IMG/VR virus record: IMGVR_UViG_3300046744_000023
Location: 1 to 39,541 of that record
Length of the DNA stretch: 39,541 nucleotides
Strand: one strand, 5' to 3'
DNA from: a virus
The position numbers were made by a program, and so were the translations under genes. Of the stretch, positions 12,067 to 39,541 are shown one piece after another. The notes under the pieces were generated by a model, which searched no databases, had not been told where the DNA came from, and saw only the letters and a list, made by a program, of their open reading frames with translations. Within the stretch, counting starts at the first letter, position 1. Each line of letters opens with the position of its first letter.

Positions 12067-12900
12067 TTAAAGTGCCGCGTCGAACAGCAACTCAACACCA
12101 TAGTCGTCATCAAGCTCGCCAACGCCGTAGATGGCAGTAGCGTTAAGCTCGAAGGCACGAAGTGATGCGTCACGCTGTGTCTCAAGGTTAAAGTCACGCT
12201 TCATGGCGATTGCTAGGGCTTCTGGTACGAATACCGCGCCTTTCGCATCGTCAGAACCGTCGATAGACACGTTGCTAGACTCGTAGATGTCGATGCCGCC
12301 GATCTGGCCAACGTATGCGTTACGCATTGCGTCGTTTTGCAAGTCACCACCGTTAGGGTTTACAAACGTGTTAGTGAGGTTGGCTTTCAACTGGTACGCG
12401 TGATATGGGTGTACCACAGCCGCCATTTGTCCGCGCGCCTTGTTTGTCTTAAGAGTAGCCGCCGCTTTCATTAAGTCAGCAACAGTGATCTCAGTGCCTG
12501 CACCGCCCAAAGAGCTAGAGAAGCCGTCGAACAATGCGATTAGATCAGTGTCGATCTTAGTAGCGATTGCGTTACCCAATACAGTGCCAAGCTCTTCAGC
12601 AGGGTTACCAGCACCCATTGCCGCAAGATCAGTCAGAATAACCTGCGCACCAACTTCAGAGACAGTGATTGTCTGCGAAGTAGTAGACACAGTGGTAGAC
12701 GACATATCAGTGCCCTCAGTCAACGCGCCTGCGGTGATTGCTGGGTACTTGGGTACTTGTACGGTTTTGCCAGCTTGGTTGCCGATGTCGTAACGAGTTA
12801 CGAGGCCAAGCATGAGTGATTCTTCTTCAGCAGTGAAACGTGCCTGAAGGATGATATTTGCGAACAGATCGTCCAGCGTTGTTGAAGTAGTAGCCGCCAT
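12067..12900 (-). CDS. major capsid protein, HK97 fold (phage A)
   Basis: A 277-residue capsid subunit. The pattern is that of small HK97-fold proteins: an N-terminal arm (about 1-35), GKTVQVPKYPAITAGALTEG, SEVGAQVILTDLAAMG, the spine region LGTVLGNAIATKIDTDLIAL, and an A-domain segment FVPEALAIAMKRDFNLETQR with RDA after it. It directly follows a scaffold gene with an 18-base gap containing GGAGA, and is followed by a strong terminator. No protease gene is seen, so maturation probably depends on the scaffold. Confidence 0.9.
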   Translation of the reverse strand: MAATTSTTLDDLFANIILQARFTAEEESLMLGLVTRYDIGNQAGKTVQVPKYPAITAGALTEGTDMSSTTVSTTSQTITVSEVGAQVILTDLAAMGAGNPAEELGTVLGNAIATKIDTDLIALFDGFSSSLGGAGTEITVADLMKAAATLKTNKARGQMAAVVHPYHAYQLKANLTNTFVNPNGGDLQNDAMRNAYVGQIGGIDIYESSNVSIDGSDDAKGAVFVPEALAIAMKRDFNLETQRDASLRAFELNATAIYGVGELDDDYGVELLFDAAL

Positions 12901-12918
12901 GATGAAGTCTCCTATAAG

Positions 12919-13596
12919 TTAGCGGTTAGCTTTTTGCGCTAGCTTGTATTCACGAAAAGCGGCTTTTCCGCCTTTATCGTAATTAGCTAGCATGTCAGCC
13001 GCCGACATAGGTTTCGGCGTAGCACCTCCAGCCGCTCCCATTGATCCAGCGCCGCCCTGCGATGCCTTCACAAAATGTGGATTAGCCGTTAGGAAATCAG
13101 ATACAAGCTCATCGACTGTCAGCAGTTCACCTTTGTCGTTATACCTTGGCGTCCCGTTAGTATCGTAAACCTCAACTGAGCCATCTTCAGATAGCTTAAC
13201 GGAGCCTTTCAGCAACTGACTAACTTGCTCTGCTGATACAGCGTTGTTCCTGCTTGCGGCTGTAAGTAACGCGCCATCGACTAAGGTAGCCTCTAGGCGT
13301 GACTTGTAGCCCTGTATTTCCTGATCTTTCTTTTCGACAGTATTACGCAAGATAGATTCAAACTCACCGCGATCCTTCTGTTGCTCTAACTCAGCTTGTT
13401 GCCTTTCGGCCAACAGTTGGCGCACTTCGTTTACGTCGATATCCTCGTATTTCTTTTCGACTTGCCGCTTAGTGCGGGCAATCCGATCAGACACGATTCG
13501 ATCTAACTCTTCTTGTGTGAACGTCTTAGTTTCCTGAGTTTCTTGCTCTTCAGCTACGGGCTCAGTCACCGCTTCCACCATGATTTCATCGCTCAT
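12919..13596 (-). CDS. capsid scaffolding protein
   Basis: A 225-residue acidic, highly charged protein. Residues 20-90 are predicted coiled coil (DRIVSDRIARTKRQVEKKYE, then ADER/EQQKDRGEFESI-type repeats). The C-terminus is basic (GKAAFREYKLAQKANR), as in scaffolds whose basic tail binds capsid subunits. Gene order portal-MuF-scaffold-capsid supports the role. A Gly/Ala-rich linker (about 175-195) precedes the binding tail. Confidence 0.82.
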   Translation of the reverse strand: MSDEIMVEAVTEPVAEEQETQETKTFTQEELDRIVSDRIARTKRQVEKKYEDIDVNEVRQLLAERQQAELEQQKDRGEFESILRNTVEKKDQEIQGYKSRLEATLVDGALLTAASRNNAVSAEQVSQLLKGSVKLSEDGSVEVYDTNGTPRYNDKGELLTVDELVSDFLTANPHFVKASQGGAGSMGAAGGATPKPMSAADMLANYDKGGKAAFREYKLAQKANR

Positions 13597-13635
13597 GTAA
13601 CGTATCCTCTTACGAGTAGGGTTAATTGTATCAAA

Positions 13636-13686
13636 TTAGCGTGATTTGCGCTTTTTCTTCTTTTTGTCTTTCTTGTGGTAAGGCAT
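13636..13686 (-). CDS. 16-residue Lys-rich micropeptide
   Basis: ATG at 13686, stop TAA at 13636-13638, encoding MPYHKKDKKKKKRKSR. The start is preceded by GAAGGAGAG, a strong ribosome site formed by the last codons of the MuF gene, and lies 2 bases after that gene's stop. The second head module has an analogous 28-residue Lys-tailed peptide with the same MP(G/Y) beginning. It could bind nucleic acid or the scaffold; it may also be only a translational bridge to the scaffold gene. Confidence 0.5.
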   Translation of the reverse strand: MPYHKKDKKKKKRKSR

Positions 13687-13688
13687 GT

Positions 13689-14441
13689 TTACTCTCCTTC
13701 AAAGACAGGCCGAAATCTGTGTCTGCAATTATACCCGCCTCCAACAACAAACGGGCTACCTTCGCGCTTGCCGCTCCACTCGCCGCTCCACGCTTCGTTA
13801 ATCTCTTCAATCGTCATCGTCTTGCCGACGTGCTTGTCACAATGCTCGCGGGTTTTGCTGTCGTCAGGGCCGTAATACTTAAACCGTGTTGCGCCTGCGC
13901 CTAGTGACATATTAGCCGTAATTGATCTATCAAAGTCCATCAGGCCGTCGTGCAATGCCACCTGTGCGTATCGCCCTAGATCGGCGTCTACACTGTTGCG
14001 TATCTGCTGTACGCTATCAGCAAAACTCGCGCCCGTTAAGGTGTTCTTGTATACCTGCGTCGCCACCTCCTCGATAAACTCTTCCCCCAGAGCCTCGAAG
14101 CCGTTAAACGTAAGCTGTTGCAACTGACTAACGACTGCGCTGTCTAGCTGTGCGAATGCCGTGTAGTTGCCAAGCATGGCCTGCGCCTCTGCCGCCACGG
14201 TTGCGTATTCCCTCAGTATGTCGTCAATCTCTGTCAGGTACTTTTCGCGAACAACCGATGCAATCTCAGAGCGTGCGTTTACTGCCCACTCTAAGTCAAA
14301 CAGTTGCCCATCACGCAATGGAGCGCCAGACATAAGCTGGATGATCTCTTGATCTAGCTCTGCAAGCGCCTGCGCCAGCCTGCGTTGGTGACGCTCGGCC
14401 CGTGCAATGACAGCGCGAGCGTGATCGGTATCAGCCGCCAT
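13689..14441 (-). CDS. minor head protein, MuF-like
   Basis: A 250-residue head protein with the MuF C-terminal domain: FKYYGPDDSKTREHCDKHVG, then GGGYNCRHRFRPVF, with the paired Cys/His residues typical of the family. The N-terminal 150 residues are helical. In SPP1- and Mu-type phages this protein binds the portal and is packaged in the head in a few copies. It overlaps the portal end by 11 bases, the usual portal-MuF coupling. Confidence 0.88.
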   Translation of the reverse strand: MAADTDHARAVIARAERHQRRLAQALAELDQEIIQLMSGAPLRDGQLFDLEWAVNARSEIASVVREKYLTEIDDILREYATVAAEAQAMLGNYTAFAQLDSAVVSQLQQLTFNGFEALGEEFIEEVATQVYKNTLTGASFADSVQQIRNSVDADLGRYAQVALHDGLMDFDRSITANMSLGAGATRFKYYGPDDSKTREHCDKHVGKTMTIEEINEAWSGEWSGKREGSPFVVGGGYNCRHRFRPVFEGE

Positions 14442-15831
14442 TCTCTACGACTTCAGTAAATTGGCCGACAGCGCGTTGTGTACCTTCGATCTCGTCGTGC
14501 GCTGATGCGAGTAGCTCGTCGTCGAGAATCAAGTCTGCGATCTGCTTATCAATTGCCTTGGCAAATACGTCGGAGCGAACGCCCGATGCTTTCGCCTGCT
14601 GTAGGAATCGAAGCTCTGATTCGTAATCTCGGATATCGAAGGAATCTGGATAGCTGATCTGTACCTCGTGCGGATCATGCCCCTGCCATAAGCAATAGAA
14701 CATCCACAGTTGCTCTTCTGCCAGCTCTAAAATGTCGGCTTTCTCTGACAGCTTGGCGTTTAGCATTTGGAATTCAGTCTGCATCGCTACGCCTGATTGC
14801 AAGATTGCCTCTGTGCCACGTACTGCGCCCATGTGCGCCATGCGGTTAATCGACTCGATCTTGTCGGTTATAGATGCGCGGATAGCGTCGAGGTTAGCGC
14901 CTGATGGCTGTAGCTGGTACGGCTTTAGCCCTGCATCGCTGTCCTCAGAGATATTGATAACCGCGCCTGCCCCTGCGCTTGCGTCAGTCTCGTATGTCTT
15001 AACCAGCGTTGGGTGATTAGATATGCGAATCAGTTGCTCGATCTCCGACAGCTCCTGATAGATTGCCTGTTGCATATAGGCGATGTCGCTAATGTCACTG
15101 ATACCCATGCCACGCACCACGGATCGGTTAGCGGGCAGGTTAACAGCAGGAATCTTGCCGATAGGGTTTTCGATCTCTTCTAGCAATGCGGCATCTGCGC
15201 CGTCGTAACGTATTAGGCAAATCTTGTCTTTGTACCACTCGCGGAAGTGGGTAACCGTTGTCGTGCCATCTACGCGATCAACTGACTCACGAATCTTTAG
15301 GTATACCAGCTCATGCCGTCCGCTCGGCTGTCGCTCCCATCGCCAATCGTAGACGTTCTCAGGCGTAATCAGCGTGACGTAGGGCCGTATTTCTTGCGCC
15401 ATCTCTTCAGCGCGTGTGCCTGCGTTGGACTGCGGCTTGTCCATCATTAGCCAAACGTGCCCGTAAACACTGCTCCAAATCTGAGCCTCACGCATAAAGC
15501 TATTGAAGTTCTGGCCGTCAAGGTTTGCGTCTTTGATAAACGCTTCTAGATCGGCACTACCCTCCATGCCAGCGAAATTACGAGTAGGCGCAACACGCCA
15601 CAGGAACGACGAGTAGACATGCACGACGTTACGACAGTGATTGTCTAACGGAGTAAGCGCCAGCCTGCGGCTGTAGGCGTTCTTGTCCTCGTTGAGGTAG
15701 CTAGTTAGGTATGAGCCGTCGCGGTAATCCTCACCGCCCATGTAACTCCTAACGTAGAACTCCCAGCGGTTTACGTTGTTCTCGTAATCGGGGTGCTGGT
15801 ACTCGATATCATGGTTGTAGATCATGTCCAC
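14431..15831 (-). CDS. portal protein (phage A, SPP1/DUF4055-like)
   Basis: A 466-residue portal. The N-terminus (NNVNRWEFYVRSYMGGEDYR with LTPLDNHCRNVVHVYSSFLW) and the later NLPANRSVVRGMGISDISDI and AMQTEFQMLNAKLSEKADIL segments fit portals of the DUF4055/SPP1 gp6 type. It forms the dodecameric DNA gate at one head vertex and docks the terminase. It overlaps the terminase stop by 10 bases and MuF by 11. Confidence 0.88.
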   Translation of the reverse strand: MDMIYNHDIEYQHPDYENNVNRWEFYVRSYMGGEDYRDGSYLTSYLNEDKNAYSRRLALTPLDNHCRNVVHVYSSFLWRVAPTRNFAGMEGSADLEAFIKDANLDGQNFNSFMREAQIWSSVYGHVWLMMDKPQSNAGTRAEEMAQEIRPYVTLITPENVYDWRWERQPSGRHELVYLKIRESVDRVDGTTTVTHFREWYKDKICLIRYDGADAALLEEIENPIGKIPAVNLPANRSVVRGMGISDISDIAYMQQAIYQELSEIEQLIRISNHPTLVKTYETDASAGAGAVINISEDSDAGLKPYQLQPSGANLDAIRASITDKIESINRMAHMGAVRGTEAILQSGVAMQTEFQMLNAKLSEKADILELAEEQLWMFYCLWQGHDPHEVQISYPDSFDIRDYESELRFLQQAKASGVRSDVFAKAIDKQIADLILDDELLASAHDEIEGTQRAVGQFTEVVENGG

Positions 15832-17036
15832 CTCTGCGGCTGTACAGGTGTATGCGCCTTTTTGATTGGGAATAAGTAATCAACCGCATAGCCCAGTGCA
15901 TCATTCATGTGATCGAATCCGTCCTTTTCGGGTTGGCTAGTGCCTTCCTTGTATGTGTGACGTTCCAAGCTCTCGATCACCTTCTTGCACTTAGGATCAA
16001 CGTACAAACGCCGCTTGCCATCGCTACTCTGCAAACGTGCGTTCACCGCATTTATACGATCCCTAATCTGGCTGTGACTTGTCTTGGCGCGTACCTCAAA
16101 GCCTGCATTCTGCAAAATAGACAGATCAGTTCTACCGCCTGCGCTTGTTTTACGCTGACGACTAGCTGGATCGGGATAAATTATAACACGCGACTGCCTG
16201 CCATACCTCTGCCGTATTTCGTCAACCATCTCGTCGGTGTTTGAGCCGAACAAAACGATCTCATCGAAGACGTGCAAGGTGTCACCGTGTCGCGCCATTA
16301 AAACAGCAGACATCGGATCAATGTTGAAGTCCATGCCTACGTGTATGACACCGATATCGTCGGTATGTCTTGCAACTGACTCTTCTCGCTTGAAGTTGTA
16401 GTAAATGATTCCTGAGTAATTGACGAATTTTGCACCGTATTCTTGCTCGAAGGTTCGCTCGTCCAAGTCCGCTTTAGCTGACTCAATTTCTGCTGATGGG
16501 ACATTGCCGCCTTCAAGCGTTGTGTATTGATGTGAACTCCACCCGTCATCGTGATCTACTCCCTTGCCCCATAAATCGTAAAAGTGATTGCGGCCTTTCG
16601 GTGTGCCAATGAACAGTGCACCGCCTTGCCTATCAGATAGCGATGGGCGTATTACCTCAAACCACGCCTCTTTACGCATATCTGCAAACTCGTCCATAAC
16701 GACAAAATTCAAAGATCGGCCCCGTAAGTTATCGGGCTTCTCTGCGCCTTTCAGCGATATGCTTGAGCCATTCAGAAAATTGATCGTTAGCGACGTTTCA
16801 TTTGTGCGTTCGATGTAATCTGAGGGGATCTGACTAATCAGCATCTCCCAAGCTATTTCCTTAGCGGCCTTATAGGTGGGCGCGACATACCACACGTTCT
16901 GATCTTTGGCGGCCAAGGCGCGAGCTAATAGCTCTGCCGTGCTTAGGAATGTCTTGCCGAATCGACGCCCTGCAACAACGACACGAAAGCGTGTTTCATC
17001 GTCGAATATTTTAGTCTGCGGCTTCGTCAGTATCAT
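15822..17036 (-). CDS. terL: terminase large subunit (phage A)
   Basis: A 404-residue packaging motor. Walker A is AGRRFGKT (22-29), with adenine-contact Gln near residue 7. Walker B with the catalytic Glu is NFVVMDE (110-116). IGTPKGRNHFYDL is the coupling motif III region. The C-terminal RNase H-like nuclease opens with HVGMDFNIDPMSAVLM. It overlaps terS by 26 bases. It is compact compared with typical 420-550-residue subunits but no catalytic motif is missing. Confidence 0.95.
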   Translation of the reverse strand: MILTKPQTKIFDDETRFRVVVAGRRFGKTFLSTAELLARALAAKDQNVWYVAPTYKAAKEIAWEMLISQIPSDYIERTNETSLTINFLNGSSISLKGAEKPDNLRGRSLNFVVMDEFADMRKEAWFEVIRPSLSDRQGGALFIGTPKGRNHFYDLWGKGVDHDDGWSSHQYTTLEGGNVPSAEIESAKADLDERTFEQEYGAKFVNYSGIIYYNFKREESVARHTDDIGVIHVGMDFNIDPMSAVLMARHGDTLHVFDEIVLFGSNTDEMVDEIRQRYGRQSRVIIYPDPASRQRKTSAGGRTDLSILQNAGFEVRAKTSHSQIRDRINAVNARLQSSDGKRRLYVDPKCKKVIESLERHTYKEGTSQPEKDGFDHMNDALGYAVDYLFPIKKAHTPVQPQRWT

Positions 17037-22692: not shown

Positions 22693-23130
22693 CTACCCCC
22701 CCAGTTTGCTGTACTCCGAATTTTGAGGTTTGGTGAGTTTGACGCCAAGATCAATGCACCATGCCTCTACTTGTTGCATGAAGTATAACATTTCTCCCCT
22801 GTCTAGCGTCGAAGTACCGCGTACCTGTGCGGGTATCGTCGTATTGCCGACATCTACGTCCTCAGTGCCGAGGAATTTGTATTTAAGCATTAGCTTTAAA
22901 TCATCCTCTGTACCCGTAAACCCACCGCGCTTTTTAAAGTGCCGTGTCATATCCCGACACCAAACGTGAAACAGATCATTTTGACTCAGCGAGCGCCGTG
23001 GCTTGTACTCTTTCACCTGCCATGAAATAGGTTTATCCCAATTCCATTCGTCCTCTAGAAATTTCTGAAACGCTTTCATGCGATCCTTTATTTCTATCGG
23101 ATCTTTTATCAACCAGAACTCGCCCATCAT
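22693..23130 (-). CDS. NinB-like recombination protein
   Basis: A 145-residue protein with ISWQVKEYKPRRSLSQNDLF and HVWCRDMTRHF, the R-x-S-x-x-Q-N signature of NinB-type proteins, which bind single-stranded DNA in phage recombination. GEMLYFMQQVEAWCIDLGVK is the usual C-terminal helix. It overlaps the replication gene upstream by 4 bases and is 2 bases from the phosphoesterase gene. NinB is typically found after replication genes, as here. Confidence 0.72.
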   Translation of the reverse strand: MMGEFWLIKDPIEIKDRMKAFQKFLEDEWNWDKPISWQVKEYKPRRSLSQNDLFHVWCRDMTRHFKKRGGFTGTEDDLKLMLKYKFLGTEDVDVGNTTIPAQVRGTSTLDRGEMLYFMQQVEAWCIDLGVKLTKPQNSEYSKLGG

Positions 23131-23501
23131 CGCGTTACCTTCTGCCCGTCAAACGTCACGTACTGCCCATACTTCTCAAGGCATGACTGCCTAAACGCTT
23201 CGCTTTGACAGAAATCGTGAGTCAAATCGTCTAATTGAGTCCAAGTCTTAAGCGGCTTCTTGCCCGTGGCCTCTTGCTCTTGCTGTGCAAACGGGCTTCC
23301 GCCTTTTTGGTTTGCGCGTGACAGCCAGCTCTGACAAAAGCGAGGCATTCCCCGCACTGTTTTGACGCGAGTAGGGTTAGCCTCTAACCATGTCGCCATG
23401 ACATTTAGCTCGGCAAAAATATCGACATCAGGAAAAGCGTGTTGCCAGCTCAGTAGTTGCTCGTCTGTTGGTTGCCAATCAGTTCCATTCTTGCAAATCA
23501 T
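23127..23501 (-). CDS. replication protein / helicase-loader C-terminal-like
   Basis: A 124-residue protein starting at ATG 23501, preceded by GAGGTGGG. WQPTDEQLLSWQHAFPDVDI, LNVMATWLEANPTRVKT and GMPRFCQSWLSRAN match the C-terminal module found on many phage replication initiators and helicase loaders. Here it stands alone without the N-terminal DNA-binding part. It overlaps the nuclease gene by 23 bases. It may recruit a host helicase to an origin, possibly the nearby 24.1-kb repeats. Confidence 0.65.
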   Translation of the reverse strand: MICKNGTDWQPTDEQLLSWQHAFPDVDIFAELNVMATWLEANPTRVKTVRGMPRFCQSWLSRANQKGGSPFAQQEQEATGKKPLKTWTQLDDLTHDFCQSEAFRQSCLEKYGQYVTFDGQKVTR

Positions 23502-23889
23502 TTCTTGCCCACCTCTCCCATATCTCAAATTGCTGTTTAAGTGTTTCTAGCGTTCCGTTTCGGCGCTTGTAAACATGGTTCTTGTGATAACGAAGGTAAT
23601 AGAACACCTCCATCGTTTTAGAGTCGCCATATACTAGGAACACGGTGAAGTCGTCTCGTTGCATCAGACTGCGAAACATTCGCTCTTGTCCGCCTGTCAC
23701 TTCACCGCCTACGCCTTTCCACTCCATAAGCAAAAACTTATTGTTGATTTCGGTTATTGCGTCGATGTCAGAAAATGCAATTTTCCCCGTAAAGCATTCT
23801 GCGAAAATTTCGATTTTAGGATGGCATTCAGTTAAATAACATCCGTTGCTTTTACACTGCCACCGTATTGGATTGTATCCGTTGTCCAT
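23479..23889 (-). CDS. PD-(D/E)XK nuclease-like protein
   Basis: A 136-residue protein with the nuclease core FSDIDAITEI (D41, D43) followed by LLMEWKG (E56-x-K58), the acidic pair and E-x-K of PD-(D/E)XK enzymes. Four cysteines in the first 32 residues (C12, C17, C22, C32) may bind a metal. Candidate roles are resolvase-like or recombination nuclease. It is the first gene after the noncoding region and has AAGGGT just before the ATG. Confidence 0.75.
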   Translation of the reverse strand: MDNGYNPIRWQCKSNGCYLTECHPKIEIFAECFTGKIAFSDIDAITEINNKFLLMEWKGVGGEVTGGQERMFRSLMQRDDFTVFLVYGDSKTMEVFYYLRYHKNHVYKRRNGTLETLKQQFEIWERWARNDLQEWN

Positions 23890-23921
23890 ACCCTTACCCT
23901 TTTTTTAGACAATAGGGATCA

Positions 23922-24060
23922 TTAGAGGCGGTTGTTGCCCTATACAAGTATCCTAGCTAGTCCATTCAGTTCTACAGTATCAGTGCAGATTCATTTACGG
24001 CTCTGCCAAACCGCGCCCTTACTACTTGGCAACATAACCACTGTTTATCCCCGCCTCTAA
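23922..24060. repeat. long-range inverted repeat TTAGAGGCGG ... CCGCCTCTAA
   Basis: TTAGAGGCGG (23922-23931) and CCGCCTCTAA (24051-24060) are perfect complements closing a domain of 139 bases. Just inside, GTTGCC (23934-23939) can pair with GGCAAC (24028-24033), and TGCCAA/TTGGCA (24004-24009/24026-24031) can form an alternative inner stem. This could be a structured RNA or a DNA element. Confidence 0.6.
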
Positions 24061-24089
24061 AGGTTCGAGAACTGATTCGGCTTTCGTGA

Positions 24090-24167
24090 GCGACTGCACC
24101 TGCGACAGCACTATTTGACTAGGCTCGACTAGGCACACATAAGGTAAGAATAGGTGAGATAGGTGTA
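24090..24167. repeat. three clusters of short tandem repeats (iteron-like, candidate origin)
   Basis: In order: two 12-base units GCGACtGCACct/GCGACaGCACta (24090-24113), two 10-base units GACTAGGCtc/GACTAGGCac (24117-24136), and two 9-base units ATAGGTGag/ATAGGTGta (24150-24167) with a weaker third copy just before. Clustered direct repeats in a noncoding gap beside replication genes are typical of iterons bound by an initiator. Confidence 0.5.
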
Positions 24168-24191
24168 CAGACAGCTAGATTGCTGTACAAT
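24164..24191 (+). promoter_or_regulatory. candidate plus-strand promoter inside an inverted-repeat operator
   Basis: TGTACA (24164-24169), 16 bases, then TACAAT (24186-24191) form -35 and -10 boxes. The arms TGTACAG (24164-24170) and CTGTACA (24183-24189) are perfect inverted repeats, their centres 19 bases apart, and cover both boxes, so one dimer bound there would block polymerase. Confidence 0.45.
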
Positions 24192-24197
24192 TCTTCC

Positions 24198-24286
24198 TAT
24201 CCTTTTTGCGTGCAAGCTCAAGGATACCTCTTGCGTCTACCCTTCCGCAAGTGGCTAGCCCCGTTTCCTCGACGGGGCTTTTTTTT
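24198..24286 (+). ncRNA. candidate 89-nt three-hairpin RNA, OOP-like layout
   Basis: Transcription from the 24164-24191 promoter would start near 24198, exactly at the first hairpin. Hairpin 1 pairs TATCCTT (24198-24204) with AAGGATA (24220-24226). Hairpin 2 pairs CCtCTTGCG (24227-24235) with CGCAAGtGG (24246-24254), one mismatch. Hairpin 3 is the terminator. No ribosome site or ORF is evident. The RNA runs against every neighbouring gene and ends on the stop codon of the HTH gene, much as lambda OOP RNA lies between cII and O. Its action is unknown; pairing with mRNA of the HTH or upstream operon, or priming replication, are options. Confidence 0.5.
24257..24286 (+). terminator. plus-strand intrinsic terminator
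   Basis: AGCCCCG (24257-24263) pairs with CGGGGCT (24273-24279) around a 9-base loop, followed by eight T residues (24279-24286). The T run is only on the plus strand, so the hairpin serves rightward transcription, although all nearby protein genes are leftward. Confidence 0.8.
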
Positions 24287-24494
24287 ATCTGCCTAATTTC
24301 TCAAACTCATCCAACGACAAGTTGAGTCTGTTGGCTAACTGAACGACAAGCGAAAACTTCATGTCGTCCTTATGCCGCCATCTACAGACAGCGACATTCC
24401 CAACACCGAACTCCTTTGCCAGCTCCTCATTGCTGACGCCTGCCAGTGCTTGCGCCTTCTTAAGTGCGCGGCCTGTGCTAGAAGGGCAAATCAT
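24285..24494 (-). CDS. Cro/CI-type HTH regulator
   Basis: A 69-residue DNA-binding protein with one helix-turn-helix: LKKAQALAGVSNEELAKEFG, VGNVAVCRWRH, and a closing helix VVQLANRLNLSLDEFEKL. Size and fold match Cro or small cII-like regulators. The ATG at 24494 lies inside the last codons of the SSB-like gene (17-base overlap); no separate ribosome site is clear, so it may be coupled. Its stop codon touches the terminator of the opposing RNA. The inverted repeats at 24164-24189 or 25836-25849 are candidate operators. Confidence 0.8.
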   Translation of the reverse strand: MICPSSTGRALKKAQALAGVSNEELAKEFGVGNVAVCRWRHKDDMKFSLVVQLANRLNLSLDEFEKLGR

Positions 24495-33411: not shown

Positions 33412-34419
33412 TTAGTTTGGCAGAGCCAGAACAAAACCAGCTTCAGGACGGTAGCACTCGACACCGTAGAGAGTGTCAGCAGTGTACAGAGTTGACAAGT
33501 GCTCCTGCTTGTACTGAGTCTGTGAACGTACAGACATTTGCTCTGCAAGAACAATAGCGTCCTTGTGGAACAAGAGTCCAGCACGTACTTCAGGACCAGC
33601 GCCGTTTTCAGAAGCTAGTTCAATAACTTCACAGTTAGAAGACACGTATACGTCTACACCGTAAAGGTTACCGATAAGGCCGCTTGCAACTGGCTGACCG
33701 CTTACGAAGTCAGAAGACACGTAACGTGAGATACCAAGGATCTGGTTACGTACTGAAGGTGGGATTACAAGGCAACGGTTGTCCATTGGAACGTCGTTGT
33801 CGTCCATCTTCTGAATCATGTCACGGAAGAAGTCGTCAGTAAATACGTCATCAGCAATAACCCTGTCTTGAACAAAAGCTGAAGTACCGTCAGTAGCGTC
33901 GTTGTAGAAACAAGAGCTATGTACGTAGCTTGCAGGAAGACCCGTGTGCAGTACGTTACTAGAACCTGCGTTAGCATTAGCACCGTCAATACGGAAAGCT
34001 GTAGCAACTTGGTGGAGGTCAGTGTCAACTTTCTTAGCAAGCGCATAACCAGCGTCTTCAGTATAAAACTGACGGAGGCTGTTGAGTGCCTGTACTTCTA
34101 CGATGTCCTCAATCAGACGAGAGTACTCAAAGTGACGATCAACGTCAATTGTGATTTCGTCTTCAGTGTTTGCAATTACAGTAACTGCAGTGTCAGCAGA
34201 CTTAGCGTTTGCGTCAGCACGGACAGGTACTGGGACGTGAATGCGGTCACCCTTCTTGCCAGACATTGCAATCTTCTTGACAAGCGGTGCCATCTTGAGG
34301 TTCTTCTGGTAAGCAGCAATTACCTCGTCACTCCAGATTTCTGGAATAAACGCTGATGCTTCGGTCTTCGCTGTAAACGCTGCTGCTGCAGGCGAAGAAG
34401 TGTATGTTGTAGTAGCCAT
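33412..34419 (-). CDS. major capsid protein (phage B, podovirus-like)
   Basis: A 335-residue capsid protein unrelated by eye to the 277-residue one. Recognisable segments: FIPEIWSDEVIAAYQKNLKM, GDRIHVPVPVRADANAKSAD, IDVDRHFEYSRLIEDIVEVQ, and a C-terminal half with RCLVIPPSVRNQILGISRYV and GLIGNLYGVDVYVSSN. This fits HK97-fold capsid proteins of marine podoviruses. It follows a scaffold gene by 17 bases with GGAG before the ATG. Confidence 0.87.
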   Translation of the reverse strand: MATTTYTSSPAAAAFTAKTEASAFIPEIWSDEVIAAYQKNLKMAPLVKKIAMSGKKGDRIHVPVPVRADANAKSADTAVTVIANTEDEITIDVDRHFEYSRLIEDIVEVQALNSLRQFYTEDAGYALAKKVDTDLHQVATAFRIDGANANAGSSNVLHTGLPASYVHSSCFYNDATDGTSAFVQDRVIADDVFTDDFFRDMIQKMDDNDVPMDNRCLVIPPSVRNQILGISRYVSSDFVSGQPVASGLIGNLYGVDVYVSSNCEVIELASENGAGPEVRAGLLFHKDAIVLAEQMSVRSQTQYKQEHLSTLYTADTLYGVECYRPEAGFVLALPN

Positions 34420-34436
34420 GTTAATCTCCTAATAGA

Positions 34437-35228
34437 TTATTTGACACGACCCTCTGCGTACGCTTGTAAGATTTCTTCGGACAAGCTTTGGTAACGCTCT
34501 GGGTCAGTTCTCATTAGTTTAATAATGTCGGCCCTGCGATATACCTTCTTACGACTTCCTTCAGCACTGCCTCTGGCGTTGCCTGTGTTAGCTGCCTTGA
34601 GTTGTTGCTTACGCTCCTGTTTTTCAACATTAGCGGTCTGCTTTACTACTTGCTTCCGTTCTTTCCAGAGTGAGAAGAGTTCGTCAGCAGAGTCAGCATC
34701 GTACCCTTGGTCAGCGGCTACAAACAATTGAGTCCTAATCTTAGAAGTTTTAATCCACTCAGCAAACTTAGGATCAGCTAAGATCTCTTGCATGTCTGGG
34801 TGTTTATTATTAAGCGTAGCCAGTGCAGCCTGTTGTTTGTACTGCGCTGAGTACTGCTCTGCTTCTTTAATCTTAGGGTGGTTCTCAATAGCCTTGTTGA
34901 CAGCACCTTGCGGATCTGTAAAATAGTCTATATCGTCTTCAGGCTCAACGTATTGTTGAGGTGCTTGTTGTTGTGTCTGAGTACTAATGTAATCGTCTAC
35001 AACTTTACGAAGTTCTCCTACTTCAGATGACTGACGACCTAAAAGCTTTTCAGCCTCTTGGTGCATCTGTACAACTTCTTCCAGAGACTTACCTTGGTAC
35101 TTATCTGGAACTGCAGGTTGTTCTTGAGGTTGCTCAACTTCTTCGTGTTGAATCTCTTCTACTTCGTTTTCAATTGTGTCCACGTTGTCCTCTTCAGGTT
35201 GTGGATCTACAATCTGTGCTCTTGACAT
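34437..35228 (-). CDS. capsid scaffolding / assembly protein (phage B)
   Basis: A 263-residue very acidic, Gln- and Glu-rich protein with coiled coil (about 40-85, LEEVVQMHQEAEKLLGRQSS) and a basic C-terminal region (KKVYRRADIIKLMRTDPERY, then ILQAYAEGRVK). These are the hallmarks of a scaffold, and the gene is directly upstream of the capsid gene. A GGAG ribosome site precedes ATG 35228; a weak CTCC/GGAG stem could mask it. Confidence 0.82.
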   Translation of the reverse strand: MSRAQIVDPQPEEDNVDTIENEVEEIQHEEVEQPQEQPAVPDKYQGKSLEEVVQMHQEAEKLLGRQSSEVGELRKVVDDYISTQTQQQAPQQYVEPEDDIDYFTDPQGAVNKAIENHPKIKEAEQYSAQYKQQAALATLNNKHPDMQEILADPKFAEWIKTSKIRTQLFVAADQGYDADSADELFSLWKERKQVVKQTANVEKQERKQQLKAANTGNARGSAEGSRKKVYRRADIIKLMRTDPERYQSLSEEILQAYAEGRVK

Positions 35229-35252
35229 AATTAAACTCCGTGACTATAATCA

Positions 35253-35477
35253 TTATGGAGATGTTTTATTTTTACCTGCTTTTTCGTGTTCCCTTACCCA
35301 TTTCATGTGTGCTCCGGGGAATGTACCATCGGAACCGTTTAGGTGGAAAGACGGGGCAGATACCATCCTTGTAGAAACAGCGCCACAGGTCTTGCACCTA
35401 CTTTCTGTGACTTCTGCTTTTACAAATTCTTCATGTACGTGTCCATTAGGACAACGAAAGTCAAATACTTTATACAT
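35253..35477 (-). CDS. FmdB-like zinc-ribbon protein
   Basis: A 74-residue protein with C9-x3-H13 and C28-x2-C31, the zinc ribbon of FmdB-type small regulators (FRCPNGHVHEEF ... SRCKTCGAVSTRMVSAPSFH). The C-terminus is GTFPGAHMKWVREHEKAGK. Similar proteins recur next to head genes in marine phages; the role is unknown. ATG 35477 overlaps the upstream stop by 8 bases. Confidence 0.72.
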   Translation of the reverse strand: MYKVFDFRCPNGHVHEEFVKAEVTESRCKTCGAVSTRMVSAPSFHLNGSDGTFPGAHMKWVREHEKAGKNKTSP

Positions 35478-35724
35478 ACTCTACTTCTTTGTCTTCTGCT
35501 TCTGCTTGCTCTTTAGATGCTTCTATAGTTGACTCTAGGTTCAGTATAGTAGCAAAAGCAGCAACTTGGCCTTTTCTAAAGAAAAGTTCTTCAGAGTCTT
35601 TTACAGTCTGAATGTTAGATAACTGAGTAGTAGTAGCAGTGATTTCTTCTAAGAGTTGTTTGAAACCCTCGTTCTTAAAAAGACCAAGGAAGTTATCGTA
35701 ATAAGTTTCAAGCTCTGGTGTCAT
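35470..35724 (-). CDS. small acidic hypothetical protein
   Basis: An 84-residue helical acidic protein (ETYYDNFLGLFKNEGFKQLL, LESTIEASKEQAEAEDKEVE). The pattern is of small proteins before scaffolds in podoviruses, function unknown. It is the first gene after a very strong promoter, with a leader of about 22 bases and no clear ribosome site. Confidence 0.62.
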   Translation of the reverse strand: MTPELETYYDNFLGLFKNEGFKQLLEEITATTTQLSNIQTVKDSEELFFRKGQVAAFATILNLESTIEASKEQAEAEDKEVEYV

Positions 35725-35752
35725 AAGATATCATTCGTTAAACTATAGTATT

Positions 35753-35781
35753 AGTATAGCATACTTTTAAACAGATGTCAA
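35753..35781 (-). promoter_or_regulatory. near-consensus sigma70 promoter TTGACA-N17-TATACT
   Basis: On the minus strand TTGACA (35776-35781), exactly 17 bases, TGC, then TATACT (35753-35758). It has perfect -35, optimal spacing and an extended -10. The -35 box includes the TGA stop of the preceding gene. It should drive 35724 through the capsid gene to the terminator at 33366-33395. Confidence 0.88.
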
Positions 35782-36068
35782 GCATTTCTTGTAGATTTTC
35801 TACGTTTGCCTGAAGCTGTGACAGCATGTTTAATTTTAGCAGGTCCTGTTTTGCGTTTAGCTGATGACTTTTTTTCTGCTGCGGTCATTTTAGCAGCAAC
35901 TGCTTTAGGTCTACAGGAGGGGTATGGGCGTTTCTTTTTCTCCTTCCCAGTACGTCCACAGGGTTTACCTGTCTTAACGTCTACCCACTCCTCCTTAAAC
36001 CACTTAGTTAGTCCGCCAGTAGGTTTCTTCTTAGTTACCCGTTTACGAACTTGGTTTGGTTTAGGCAT
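35778..36068 (-). CDS. Lys-rich virion-type protein (DUF5872-like)
   Basis: A 96-residue very basic protein. GGLTKWFKEEWVDVKTGKPC, GRTGKEKKKRPYPSCRPKAV and ARKMTAAEKKSSAKRKTG-type repeats match small phage proteins I recall as DUF5872-like, which may bind DNA in the head. Its stop codon lies inside the -35 box of the downstream promoter. It overlaps the upstream gene by 8 bases. Confidence 0.72.
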   Translation of the reverse strand: MPKPNQVRKRVTKKKPTGGLTKWFKEEWVDVKTGKPCGRTGKEKKKRPYPSCRPKAVAAKMTAAEKKSSAKRKTGPAKIKHAVTASGKRRKSTRNA

Positions 36069-36231
36069 AAGTACCGCCTCTACGTTTGTACTCTTTAGTT
36101 AACCAGCCGGAAGCATAAGCACTAGGCCATACGTCAAACTTACGTTTAGCCTCTGCTTTGACTCTAGCGTACAACGCTTTGTTCTTAGGCGTAGGTCCAG
36201 ACTTCTTAGGCTTGCTCTTTGCTTTAGCCAT
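36061..36231 (-). CDS. small basic protein related to the DUF5872-like neighbour
   Basis: A 56-residue protein from ATG 36231 to TAA 36061-36063. It begins MAKAKSKPKKSGPTPKNKAL and continues YARVKAEAKRKFDVWPSAYA, SGWLTKEYKRRGGTYA. The KNKALYARVKAEAKRKFxVWPSAYAS-x-W pattern is known in small phage and giant-virus proteins of unknown role. The next gene starts within its last codons. Confidence 0.75.
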   Translation of the reverse strand: MAKAKSKPKKSGPTPKNKALYARVKAEAKRKFDVWPSAYASGWLTKEYKRRGGTYA

Positions 36232-36233
36232 GA

Positions 36234-36320
36234 CTACTTCTTCTTCTTTTTATTTTTTTTGTTAGTTGTAGTACGTTGACCACGTTTAGGTAAACTTACA
36301 TTTGATTTATATCCGGGCAT
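36234..36320 (-). CDS. 28-residue Lys-tailed micropeptide
   Basis: ATG 36320 to TAG 36234-36236, encoding MPGYKSNVSLPKRGQRTTTN followed by KKNKKKKK. AAGGAG lies about 8 bases before the start. It is the counterpart of the 16-residue Lys-rich peptide in the other head module. It lies 2 bases before the downstream start. Likely real because of the ribosome site and tight spacing; function unknown. Confidence 0.6.
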   Translation of the reverse strand: MPGYKSNVSLPKRGQRTTTNKKNKKKKK

Positions 36321-36330
36321 GACGCTCTCC

Positions 36331-36477
36331 TTACTTTTTATGAACCTTTTGGACTGCAAAGTTAGCTGACTTAGTTGCACCCTTGTGTGGCTTGTAGCCG
36401 TCTGTTGGGTCTTTCATCAGTTTGTATTCTTTACCAGCCTTCATCCAGTGATAGCCTTTAGGTGCGTTGACTTTCAT
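36331..36477 (-). CDS. small basic hypothetical protein
   Basis: A 48-residue protein, MKVNAPKGYHWMKAGKEYKL, MKDPTDGYKPHKGATKSANF, AVQKVHKK. The M-K-x-x-A-P-K-G-x-H-W-M pattern recurs in small basic phage proteins. ATG 36477 lies 4 bases after the upstream stop. Function unknown; it fits a run of small basic proteins between portal and scaffold. Confidence 0.68.
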   Translation of the reverse strand: MKVNAPKGYHWMKAGKEYKLMKDPTDGYKPHKGATKSANFAVQKVHKK

Positions 36478-36481
36478 AGTA

Positions 36482-36748
36482 TCACCATTTCTTACACGAC
36501 CAGTATCGTGCCGTTAGTTTACTAGGTGGATTAGTGTCACACTTGTGACGTGCTCTGAACGACTTACGTCGCGCTGGCTGGTCTTTCTTAATAGTCATCT
36601 TGGCGTCACCAAAGCGTATAGTCTTAGTCTTGTCGCCTTCCTTGGCAACTACTACAAACTTCTTCGTTGGGTGACTAGGCGTCCGCTTTGGCTTGTTGTA
36701 CCCGCTTACGCCCGCTCGTGCTAGTTTTGGGTCTTTCGACTTTGGCAT
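36482..36748 (-). CDS. small basic protein, homologue of the 11746-12024 product
   Basis: An 88-residue basic protein. YNKPKRTPSHPTKKFVVVAK, EGDKTKTIRFGDAKM and a C-terminus FRARHKCDTNPPSKLTARYW with SCKKW after it share the same order of motifs as the 92-residue protein near the other capsid gene. Its start ATG shares a base with the portal stop. This form keeps a Cys pair near the end (C-x-n-C) that the other lacks. Confidence 0.75.
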   Translation of the reverse strand: MPKSKDPKLARAGVSGYNKPKRTPSHPTKKFVVVAKEGDKTKTIRFGDAKMTIKKDQPARRKSFRARHKCDTNPPSKLTARYWSCKKW

Positions 36749-36860
36749 TACTGAGTTCCTCCACCTTGCGTTCCAATTCCTCCAAGCGGTCCCATTGGTC
36801 TTGAAACTGCTGGCTGATTTTGTGCGTTAGGAGTTGAAACTCTTTGGTTGTCATTAACAT
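36675..36860 (-). CDS. possible overlapping coiled-coil protein
   Basis: A 61-residue reading frame covering the last 113 bases of the portal gene and the first 74 of the next gene, in another frame. It looks protein-like: KISQQFQDQWDRLEELERKV, then EELSNAKVERPKT, with heptad spacing and a basic end. AAGG lies 8 bases before the ATG. Most out-of-frame readings here are not like this, but the low-complexity portal C-terminus could create it by chance. Confidence 0.35.
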   Translation of the reverse strand: MLMTTKEFQLLTHKISQQFQDQWDRLEELERKVEELSNAKVERPKTSTSGRKRVQQAKADA

Positions 36861-38781
36861 TAGTTTTACCTTCTATAGCTTTTTCTTTAAGGAGAGTATC
36901 AGCGATTTTCATACGTCGCTCAAACTCTTTATCTTCGGCGTCACCTTCACGAAGGTTTCGGGTGACAGCATTAATACGATCAATCTCAAGCTCCTGAGGC
37001 ACTGCCTGAGCCTCTGCAGCCAACTTAGTAGCCCTAGCACTAGACTCTTGAGCCTGTGCTGCCAGAGCCGCTGTCTGGGACTGCTGGAACTGTAGTTGTG
37101 CTTGTTGTGCTTGTTGCTGCATCTGTTGTGCTTGAGGGTTAGGTTGCATAGCTTGGGCCATAGCCGCAAGTAGGTCTTCACGGTTAGACAAGTTCATGTT
37201 GTCAATAACAGACTGAATCAATGTATTGTACAACGGTGAGTCTTTGCCCATAGTCTGCAACAGTTGTACAAGCTGAGTTACTTCGTACTCACGAGCAATA
37301 ATGCCCAGAGTAGAACTAGCGTTAAACTTGTAGTCAGCTACGGGGTACGACTCAGGGTCAAACTGCATGTACCGATAGGCTGCTTTCTTAACAAAAGGAA
37401 TCAGGAAAGACTGTTGGAAGTTAATCAGGGTCCGCTTGTGACGTTTAATAATAGCGCCAAGAGACATACTGATACCAGCGGCAGTACTCTCGCCATTAAC
37501 CTGACCTGCAATTCCTGCTGAGTCAACGGCTCCTGTTGCTTGCTGTACCATCTGCTGCAAGGCTCCGGCCTGAGCAAAAGTGATTTGATTGACTTGACCA
37601 AAGTTGAAAGGCTGAAGTACTTCACGAGGATCTCCGCTGGTTAGAATCATCTTACCGGGGCGTATCTCAGGTTTAGCACCTCGTGGTAGACGTGTGGCGT
37701 CAATAGCCATCATTGGGTGGATAGTTAGACTCAGGGCGTCAATTCTAGCTCGTAGCTCTGTGTCTAAAGCTTTTTGAGAGTTGTAACCTTTTTCACAAAC
37801 ACCACGACCCCAGAAACGTCCGGGTACTACGTCCCAAGGGAAAGCTACTACAGGACGATCAGACATCATGTAAGGGTTTGCTTCTGCCTTAAGCAGTACA
37901 CCACCGTTAGCAATCACCACAACGGCCTCTACGTACTTTGAGTCAGACTCTTGGTCAGGTACTAACTCTTCGGTATCGTCCTCTGTAGAGCCTTCTAGAA
38001 GCTCTCGTGGCACTAAACCGTAGTACTTAGTCAGACGTACTTTGTCGTCGTTGTAAATGGTTATGTCTTGGTCAGGCTCTAAGTCAGTATCAGGAGCAGC
38101 AGAACCAACGTACACGTCATTGTACACTCCTTGTTCCTGCAACATTTCTACTTGGTGTTTGCTTACAAACTCATCAATAGCCACACCCAAAGCGTCATCA
38201 ACAGAGGTTGCTACAGGATCAATTAGGAAGTTCTGAGGCAGTACAGGCTTAAGTTTTACCTTAACTCGTTCAGTAATGTTTACTCCTACTGCTTGTAACT
38301 CACCTCCCATAATAGGCTGAGTAGCAGGAGCCATTTCTTTCATTTCTTCAATAATGATTTCACCAACGCCTGTGCCAAAGACAGCAGCATTGATAAGACA
38401 TTCAGCAACAGCTTTACGTACCATACAGTCTTCAAAGTCTTCCGTAAGCTTGTTACGTAAAAACTGTACGTCCTGTTTGTCAGTGTCACCCATGTTGTCA
38501 CTAACGTCAAACCACTTGCCACGACCAAAGGTGGCTTCTTCTAGTTCCGCTACATTGGACTCAACAGCTTGTTGAAGTGCAGGAGAAATAATGCGGGAAC
38601 GCTCAGACTTACGCTCAGAATCAGCAGGGTCCCACTGACCACGCCAGAGTCTATAATATTCTTCAAATTTTCCTTCATAATTGCTTTCGTAGTAGTCCCT
38701 CCAATTTTCACATTTAGACATGACCCATTCTTCAATAGACTCGTCAATCATCAATGGGTCTGTTTCGTATAGTTCTTCCAT
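36748..38781 (-). CDS. portal protein (phage B, podovirus type)
   Basis: A 677-residue head-tail connector. The N-terminus (ESIEEWVMSKCENWRDYYES, YRLWRGQWDPADSERKSERS, RIISPALQQAVESNVAELEE) and the VPGRFWGRGVCEKGYNSQKA region fit P22-like large portals of marine podoviruses. A Gln/Ala-rich coiled segment (about 540-600) and a Gly/Pro/Asn-rich end suggest a barrel inside the capsid. It is unrelated by eye to the 466-residue portal. It begins 1 base after the terminase stop. Confidence 0.85.
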   Translation of the reverse strand: MEELYETDPLMIDESIEEWVMSKCENWRDYYESNYEGKFEEYYRLWRGQWDPADSERKSERSRIISPALQQAVESNVAELEEATFGRGKWFDVSDNMGDTDKQDVQFLRNKLTEDFEDCMVRKAVAECLINAAVFGTGVGEIIIEEMKEMAPATQPIMGGELQAVGVNITERVKVKLKPVLPQNFLIDPVATSVDDALGVAIDEFVSKHQVEMLQEQGVYNDVYVGSAAPDTDLEPDQDITIYNDDKVRLTKYYGLVPRELLEGSTEDDTEELVPDQESDSKYVEAVVVIANGGVLLKAEANPYMMSDRPVVAFPWDVVPGRFWGRGVCEKGYNSQKALDTELRARIDALSLTIHPMMAIDATRLPRGAKPEIRPGKMILTSGDPREVLQPFNFGQVNQITFAQAGALQQMVQQATGAVDSAGIAGQVNGESTAAGISMSLGAIIKRHKRTLINFQQSFLIPFVKKAAYRYMQFDPESYPVADYKFNASSTLGIIAREYEVTQLVQLLQTMGKDSPLYNTLIQSVIDNMNLSNREDLLAAMAQAMQPNPQAQQMQQQAQQAQLQFQQSQTAALAAQAQESSARATKLAAEAQAVPQELEIDRINAVTRNLREGDAEDKEFERRMKIADTLLKEKAIEGKTNVNDNQRVSTPNAQNQPAVSRPMGPLGGIGTQGGGTQ

Positions 38782-38782
38782 A

Positions 38783-39541
38783 TTAATATCCCGCCACCAC
38801 GTCTAAGATTTCGTGGTCCTCAATTTCGTAGTCGTAGTCGTACGCTACATTTGCCAGTTGGTCGATGTACGCCAAAGCGTCAATCAAGTCGTCGTGCGTC
38901 AAAGGGTCAGGGAACTGAAAGAGTTGGTCTAGAAATCTACTGTTCCATTCTCCTTTGTTTAATGTAATGTAGCCGTTTTCGAAACGACCTTGTAATGCCC
39001 ACATTATTCTGTCGGTCTTCTTTTTGTTACCGTGGGTAAGCTCTTCTACTCTAAAGAACATACCGTAACGCTTTTGCATGTCCATCAAAGGAGACATTAC
39101 AGCCTGTTTAGCAATACCTCTTTCGATTCCAACTGATACGGGACGGTAATCTCTAACGGCCTGAAATATCTTAGCTGCTGTTTCGTCAAGTGACCATCTA
39201 CCGTATATGATATTGTCAACATACCAACCATGCTCATTGACCTTAACCACGGCGATGGCTGTGTCGTCAAGCTTGGAGTTCTTAGTCTTCTTTTTGTTGA
39301 CTTCTTCAAAGCCCGCCAAGTCAACGGCAATGTAGTAATCTCCTACTTCCGGCTCATCTTCGCCAAACTTAACCCAATCTTCCTTAAACATCTCTGACCC
39401 ACGGGCTTCAAACGACGCCATAAATTCTTGACGAAACGCATAAGAAGACATAGACCTTTTAGCAATGTCAATTTCACTAGGGTCCAGTAGTGGGTTATCA
39501 TAAGAAGTAAAGTGCCAAGCTTTGTACGTAGGGTCATCATC
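38783..39541 (-). CDS. terL: terminase large subunit (phage B), partial
   Basis: The frame is open to the right window edge; the visible 252 residues are the C-terminal part. WHFTSYDNPLLDPSEIDIAK and MSSYAFRQEFMASFEARGSE form the end of the ATPase domain, and YYIAVDLAGFEEVNKK opens the RNase H-like nuclease domain, whose later acidic site is in HDDLIDALAYI. Walker motifs lie beyond the window. The start at 39451 is internal, not the true start. Confidence 0.9.
   Translation of the reverse strand, partial: DDDPTYKAWHFTSYDNPLLDPSEIDIAKRSMSSYAFRQEFMASFEARGSEMFKEDWVKFGEDEPEVGDYYIAVDLAGFEEVNKKKTKNSKLDDTAIAVVKVNEHGWYVDNIIYGRWSLDETAAKIFQAVRDYRPVSVGIERGIAKQAVMSPLMDMQKRYGMFFRVEELTHGNKKKTDRIMWALQGRFENGYITLNKGEWNSRFLDQLFQFPDPLTHDDLIDALAYIDQLANVAYDYDYEIEDHEILDVVAGY

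Follow-up and report, generated by a model that had tools for sequence, protein, structure and literature searches.

A conserved, uncatalogued regulatory locus with a predicted counter-transcribed RNA between an HTH gene and replication genes in phages

The window analysed here, the whole 39,541 nt of IMG/VR record IMGVR_UViG_3300046744_000023, contains a noncoding element flanked by two genes that both lie on the minus strand. On one side is a Cro/CI-like HTH gene (24285-24494, minus strand), which matches Pfam Phage_CI_repr above the cut-off and encodes a candidate operator-binding protein. The other neighbour (23479-23889, minus strand) is a gene for which no family was found and which differs among relatives, and behind it lies a replisome-organiser-like gene (23127-23498, minus strand) present in every locus with enough DNA. 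The product of the latter, a 124-aa protein consisting of the C-terminal domain only, is related to the C-terminal part of replisome organisers, and no credible relative of it was found among solved structures. Loci with enough DNA have the order recombination gene, SSB, small Cro-like HTH gene, element, zero to three variable genes, organiser-like gene, NinB and exonuclease. The HTH gene and the palindrome described below adjoin in most loci, and in some (L005, L076 and L099) an extra gene lies between the HTH gene and the element.

The window also carries two structural gene sets, at 12067-17036 and 33412-39451. One of them, comprising terminase, portal and capsid, resembles that of the relatives, its portal being found in nine of the ten tested; the other has an SU10-like portal, found in none of the ten, and a T7-like terminase piece. 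This double set is either a chimeric assembly or a genuine double module.

On the plus strand, opposite to the flanking genes, the element holds a predicted promoter (24164-24191) with a -35 box TGTACA (24164-24169), a 16-nt spacer and a -10 box TACAAT (24186-24191), the latter reading TATAAT in many relatives. Both boxes are covered by a perfect 7+7 inverted repeat without strand (24164-24189), TGTACAG (24164-24170)-N12-CTGTACA (24183-24189). Boxes and palindrome were thus found just as the initial annotation had claimed in describing an operator-covered promoter, and the palindrome covaries in relatives, where it can read TATACAG/CTGTATA, with G-C changed to A-T on both sides together. We presume that this palindrome is an operator, probably for the neighbouring HTH protein.

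Behind the -10 box come three hairpins and a T run, which make up a predicted counter-transcribed RNA of 88-89 nt (24198-24286, plus strand). The first hairpin starts at 24198 or 24199, 6-7 nt after the -10, and the plus strand of 24198-24286 folds at -34.0 kcal/mol vs -20.1 +/- 2.9 in shuffles (z -4.8, 0/200). In hairpin 1 (24196-24226, plus strand), seen in the fold and in comparison of subfamilies, segment M (24196-24204, CCTATCCTT) pairs with segment W (24220-24226, AAGGATA). Hairpin 2 (24227-24254, plus strand) is indicated by the fold, a repeat and covariation and has ACCCTT in its loop (24236-24245), while hairpin 3 with its T8 (24257-24286, plus strand; stem 24257-24279, T run to 24286) is an intrinsic terminator by sequence and covariation, occurring in at least three covarying versions with the T run always behind. 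The T run reaches into the HTH stop codon (24285-24287) and shares 2 nt (24285-24286) with the HTH frame. The small three-hairpin plus-strand RNA ending in T8 on the HTH stop codon, as proposed earlier, therefore holds in its sequence facts, and these are kept in many relatives. In addition, TACCCTT in the loop of hairpin 2 (24238-24244) is repeated at 23889-23895, and the loop UACCCUU is complementary to the ribosome-binding region ahead of the next gene. This match, 7 nt long here and 8 nt in L144, gave p 0.01-0.04 in A1 and <0.002 in L144, and was absent from L158, L243, L200 and L206.

An exact scan for the terminator hairpin returned nine IMG/VR contigs, two further scans and a profile search led to 54 other contigs with a homologue, and a fourth scan brought in distant homologues, most of them full-length (L142/L149, L143/L144/L146/L154 and L153/L158/L161), for a total of about 60 other IMG/VR contigs. 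The conserved unit spans ~397 nt (about 23890-24286) with 84-93% identity, which equals or exceeds the conservation of the flanking genes. The 89-nt plus-strand stretch of the initial annotation is real, but its limits were too narrow, since conservation runs through 23890-24286 and a pseudoknotted domain upstream of the promoter had been missed. Among 72 viral loci newly fetched via the organiser-like protein, 53 have the element upstream, and several of the remainder end early. No DNA relative of the element was found among cultured phages, a 34-nt match of L158 in Riemerella phages (E 0.4) being disregarded; the core pattern occurred in no cellular genome searched, and a search of cellular genomes for the organiser-like protein gave eight distant loci, none with the element. 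Within the window Rfam 15 yielded no family at the gathering threshold, and no tRNA or tmRNA was found.

Some organiser-like loci without an element of this family (family A) have the same gene order and a gap of ~290-550 nt in that place. The gap sequences comprise a class 2/3 family, a hybrid, L217, in which the family-A upstream domain is joined to a different downstream module, and a loner, L243 (a weak match). These other types share a plan, with a counter-strand terminator adjoining the HTH gene and a C-rich loop, and over all types the predicted RNA measures 72-91 nt. A -10-like box lies 6-7 nt ahead of the first hairpin in most element types. In the window alone the promoter pattern is at chance level (in 5 kb, five found vs 5.0 expected), which left comparison to make the case. 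When the match to TATAAT at the fixed spacing was compared with matches elsewhere in the same element, it proved better in A1 and A2 (0 of ~390 positions as good), L217 (0.008) and class 2 (0.000-0.038), and was weak in A3, L243 and class 3.

Three further observations concern this or a similar slot. L217 and L142/L149 are mosaics: the upstream pseudoknot domain has been exchanged independently of the downstream promoter/small-RNA module, and the break lies close to the invariant ACTAGGCTCGACTAGGC. Upstream of its counter-promoter L243 carries a ~33-nt palindrome twice in tandem, as AAATAGAACGCTATTGCTTTTGTGTTCTATTT and as a variant of it, an apparent double operator. Vibrio phages 1.122.A (L165, 1691-2301) and 1.275.O (L166, 2065-2667) have a ~600-nt noncoding gap in a similar slot upstream of an organiser-like gene; it is not homologous to the element. 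The first ~180 nt of the two gaps are almost wholly different, both with a terminator-like hairpin at the end, and the other ~430 nt are nearly identical, and this gap is possibly another unlisted element.

Read in the sense of the genes, the unit forms a putative leader (23890-24284, minus strand) that runs from the HTH stop to the ribosome-binding site of the next gene and is delimited by conservation. Covariation in the leader identifies helices A (23922-23931/24051-24060) and B (23933-23939/24028-24034), together spanning 23922-24060 on the minus strand, and helix C (23966-23973/24068-24075; 23966-24075, minus strand), which crosses A and B to form a pseudoknot and has been rebuilt with other letters in many lineages. 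A fourth structure, stem D (24133-24213, no strand assigned), has outer arms at 24133-24138 and 24208-24213 and the palindrome as its tip, and its outer arms covary through the versions GCGUAC/GUACGC, GCAUAC/GUAUGC, GCACAC/GUGUGC and GCACUC/GAGUGC. Over seven helices in 43 distinct family-A sequences, 93.9% of cells were paired vs 87.9% in shuffles (0/500), 15 pairs were doubly changed vs 9.2 (0/500), and the covariation score was 0.187 vs 0.078 (0/500), with slid controls at 0.012-0.053; because this alignment also guided the choice of helices, the slid control is in part favoured, and the shuffle figures are no probability. Compensatory changes in family A fall in the terminator, hairpin 2, the palindrome, stem D and the pseudoknot. 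The stem conservation that the initial annotation had named as a check was seen in hairpin 2, the terminator and the palindrome, and hairpin 1 shows it when subfamilies are compared. The stretch at 24100-24134, GACAGCACTATTTRACTAGGCTCGACTAGGC, is nearly invariant across family A, although no more than part of it belongs to a supported helix.

The plus strand does fold into three back-to-back hairpins as described, but the 3' arm of stem D sits in the loop of hairpin 1, which gives this part partners that exclude one another. Segment M has an alternative partner upstream, segment U, which is either AATAGG (24149-24154) or GATAGG (24158-24163). By inspection M, U and W have changed together in three family-A subfamilies, in class 2 and in L243, and in single sequences the U-M pairing seldom beats shuffles.

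Wobble pairs reveal the transcribed strand. In the class 2/3 consensus 30 pairs form on the gene-sense strand, 13 of them doubly compensated, and departures from Watson-Crick pairing are G.U on that strand (for example U.G in 8 and A-U in 2) and A.C on the other. The fold reaches -39.5 kcal/mol on the sense strand vs -28.1 on the other, a loss of ~11 kcal/mol that lies beyond the shuffled-column range, and the class 2/3 leader clearly folds on the gene-sense strand. For family A the strand difference in whole-element fold energy stays within the shuffled-column range, and the strand call therefore rests on wobble-pair polarity: interior departures in the pseudoknot favour G.U on sense, which reads A.C on plus, by 12 to 1. 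An automatic wobble count was not relied on, its A.C cells in helix B having come from a doubtful helix extension. Stem D folds better as plus-strand RNA in 28 of 40 versions vs 7, a bias not expected of a leader that is sense only. This is most simply explained by a sense leader, the first part of which would be transcribed from the opposite strand as well.

The likeness to lambda OOP that had been proposed holds for the arrangement: like OOP, the predicted RNA is small, runs counter to an early operon between a DNA-binding regulator and an O-like replication gene, ends in a terminator and has a promoter with a repressor site, here a presumed one (PMC5869508), and this slot is kept in many relatives. 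It fails for the overlap with the regulator gene, which in OOP covers 52 nt of the cII 3' end (PMC5869508) and here 2 nt of the HTH frame. With so short an overlap, the RNA is unlikely to have the job of silencing the HTH mRNA by pairing, and as antisense overlap with the regulator gene is a defining feature of OOP, we do not file the RNA as an OOP homologue. By position the complementary RNA is the predicted sense leader of the downstream replication genes, not the HTH mRNA. A conserved structured leader of ~300 nt also adjoins the small RNA here, unlike in OOP, and no sequence similarity was found in Rfam. The OOP repressor site is one for LexA, whose form is CTGT-N8-ACAG, whereas the palindrome here, ACAG...CTGT, is the reverse of that form.

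Similar in design are systems that control plasmid copy number. In ColE1, RNA I is a three-hairpin counter-transcript of ~100 nt that opposes the start of RNA II, a long folded RNA with alternative pairings, and the predicted arrangement here is alike in each of these respects; it differs in having a gene for a protein organiser, and a priming role in replication for the sense RNA here would be speculative. In the plasmid units copB-copA-repA of R1 and copG-RNAII-repB of pMV158 an antisense RNA base-pairs with the replication mRNA in its leader (PMC5717011). The order repressor gene, counter-transcribed RNA, replication gene was found here too, as was a folded sense leader, clearly in class 2/3 and in family A by the wobble polarity of the pseudoknot only. 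The present units, in contrast, belong to phages, often have accessory genes between leader and replication gene, and have a longer leader and an antisense effect that is predicted. The best Rfam scores for hairpins 2-3 were with anti-hemB (RF02837, 27.2 bits) and the Betaproteobacteria toxic sRNA (RF02278, 23.9 bits), in which a GC-rich terminator likewise follows a hairpin whose loop is rich in pyrimidines. We rejected membership since these scores are far below the gathering scores (49.5 and 50) and the context is another; the likeness is likely a convergence of C-rich loop and terminator.

We regard the locus as a conserved, uncatalogued regulatory locus and the small RNA as predicted, and several readings of it have to be weighed. 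Conservation of the whole unit up to a plus-strand terminator, and a stem D that extends across the would-be start, with its better fold on plus, would suit one long plus-strand noncoding RNA of ~390 nt, from near 23900 to the T8, with the 89-nt RNA as its 3' part only and the "promoter" as a hairpin tip. This is unlikely, given that no conserved promoter was seen at the 5' end, that wobble pairs in the upstream domain point to the other strand (class 2/3, pseudoknot) and that the -10 box before hairpin 1 recurs across different element types. That the hairpins act as DNA in a replication origin and/or operator region, with the small RNA as a by-product, seems rather improbable: the element does adjoin the organiser-like gene, contains a palindrome and is very highly conserved, but no direct-repeat array and hence no iterons were found, and crossing helices with compensatory changes and strand-polar wobbles are RNA signatures.

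Tuning of the repressor by an OOP-like antisense RNA against the HTH gene we consider quite improbable; it would fit the slot between a DNA-binding regulator and O, as in OOP (PMC5869508), and the end on the HTH stop codon, but hardly an overlap of 2 nt with the HTH frame, nor the loci (L005, L076, L099) in which another gene parts the HTH gene from the element. Very improbable is a mere plus-strand terminator guarding the HTH gene from opposing transcription, with hairpins 1 and 2 lacking a role. Terminators are common at such places, and hairpins 1 and 2 vary in their letters from one element type to another, yet unrelated types again have hairpin 1, the C-rich loop and the same distance to the -10.

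On balance we lean towards a replication-control unit, in which a counter-transcribed RNA opposes a structured leader ahead of replication genes. In its favour are the conserved ~397-nt unit, the compensatory changes, the fixed place between the HTH gene and the organiser-like gene, the like layout of other element types, the -10 match at the fixed spacing in A1, A2, L217 and class 2, the strand polarity of the wobble pairs in class 2/3 and in the family-A pseudoknot, and the loop repeat at the ribosome-binding region. Counting against it are the chance level of the promoter taken alone, the weak -10 of A3, L243 and class 3, the U-M pairing that seldom beats shuffles, the better plus-strand fold of stem D, the loop match missing from L158, L243, L200 and L206, and the first gene behind the leader, which varies among relatives. 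It is also conceivable, if rather doubtful, that the sense RNA is a phage replication RNA (origin primer or scaffold) or a sensor RNA with the counter-RNA as its brake, several sequence-unrelated versions being exchanged in one slot, each with its own HTH protein. For transcription, HTH binding, target and sign of effect in the replication-control unit we infer the following scheme. The sense leader would adopt the conserved pseudoknotted fold, ending at the ribosome-binding site of the next gene, and the promoter inside it, on the opposite strand, would produce an RNA of ~88 nt stopping at the HTH stop codon, whose position makes it complementary along its full length to the leader's first ~90 nt. 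Pairing of the two would tie up M and W and keep M from pairing with U in stem D, and the leader would then refold; the ACCCUU loop of hairpin 2 might in addition mask the purine-rich region for ribosome binding. The small RNA would rise with phage DNA copy number and repress the replication genes except when the operator is bound, which would make the HTH protein the switch of the counter-promoter.

A counter-transcribed RNA and a folded leader for copy-number control are textbook plasmid biology. A phage family of such layout, with one fixed slot and several sequence-unrelated versions, would suit the study of how RNA replication brakes evolve and are exchanged, and the covarying pseudoknot and the segment with two partners lead to direct predictions. 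The family would also lend comparative context to lambda OOP, the regulation of which is still unsettled.
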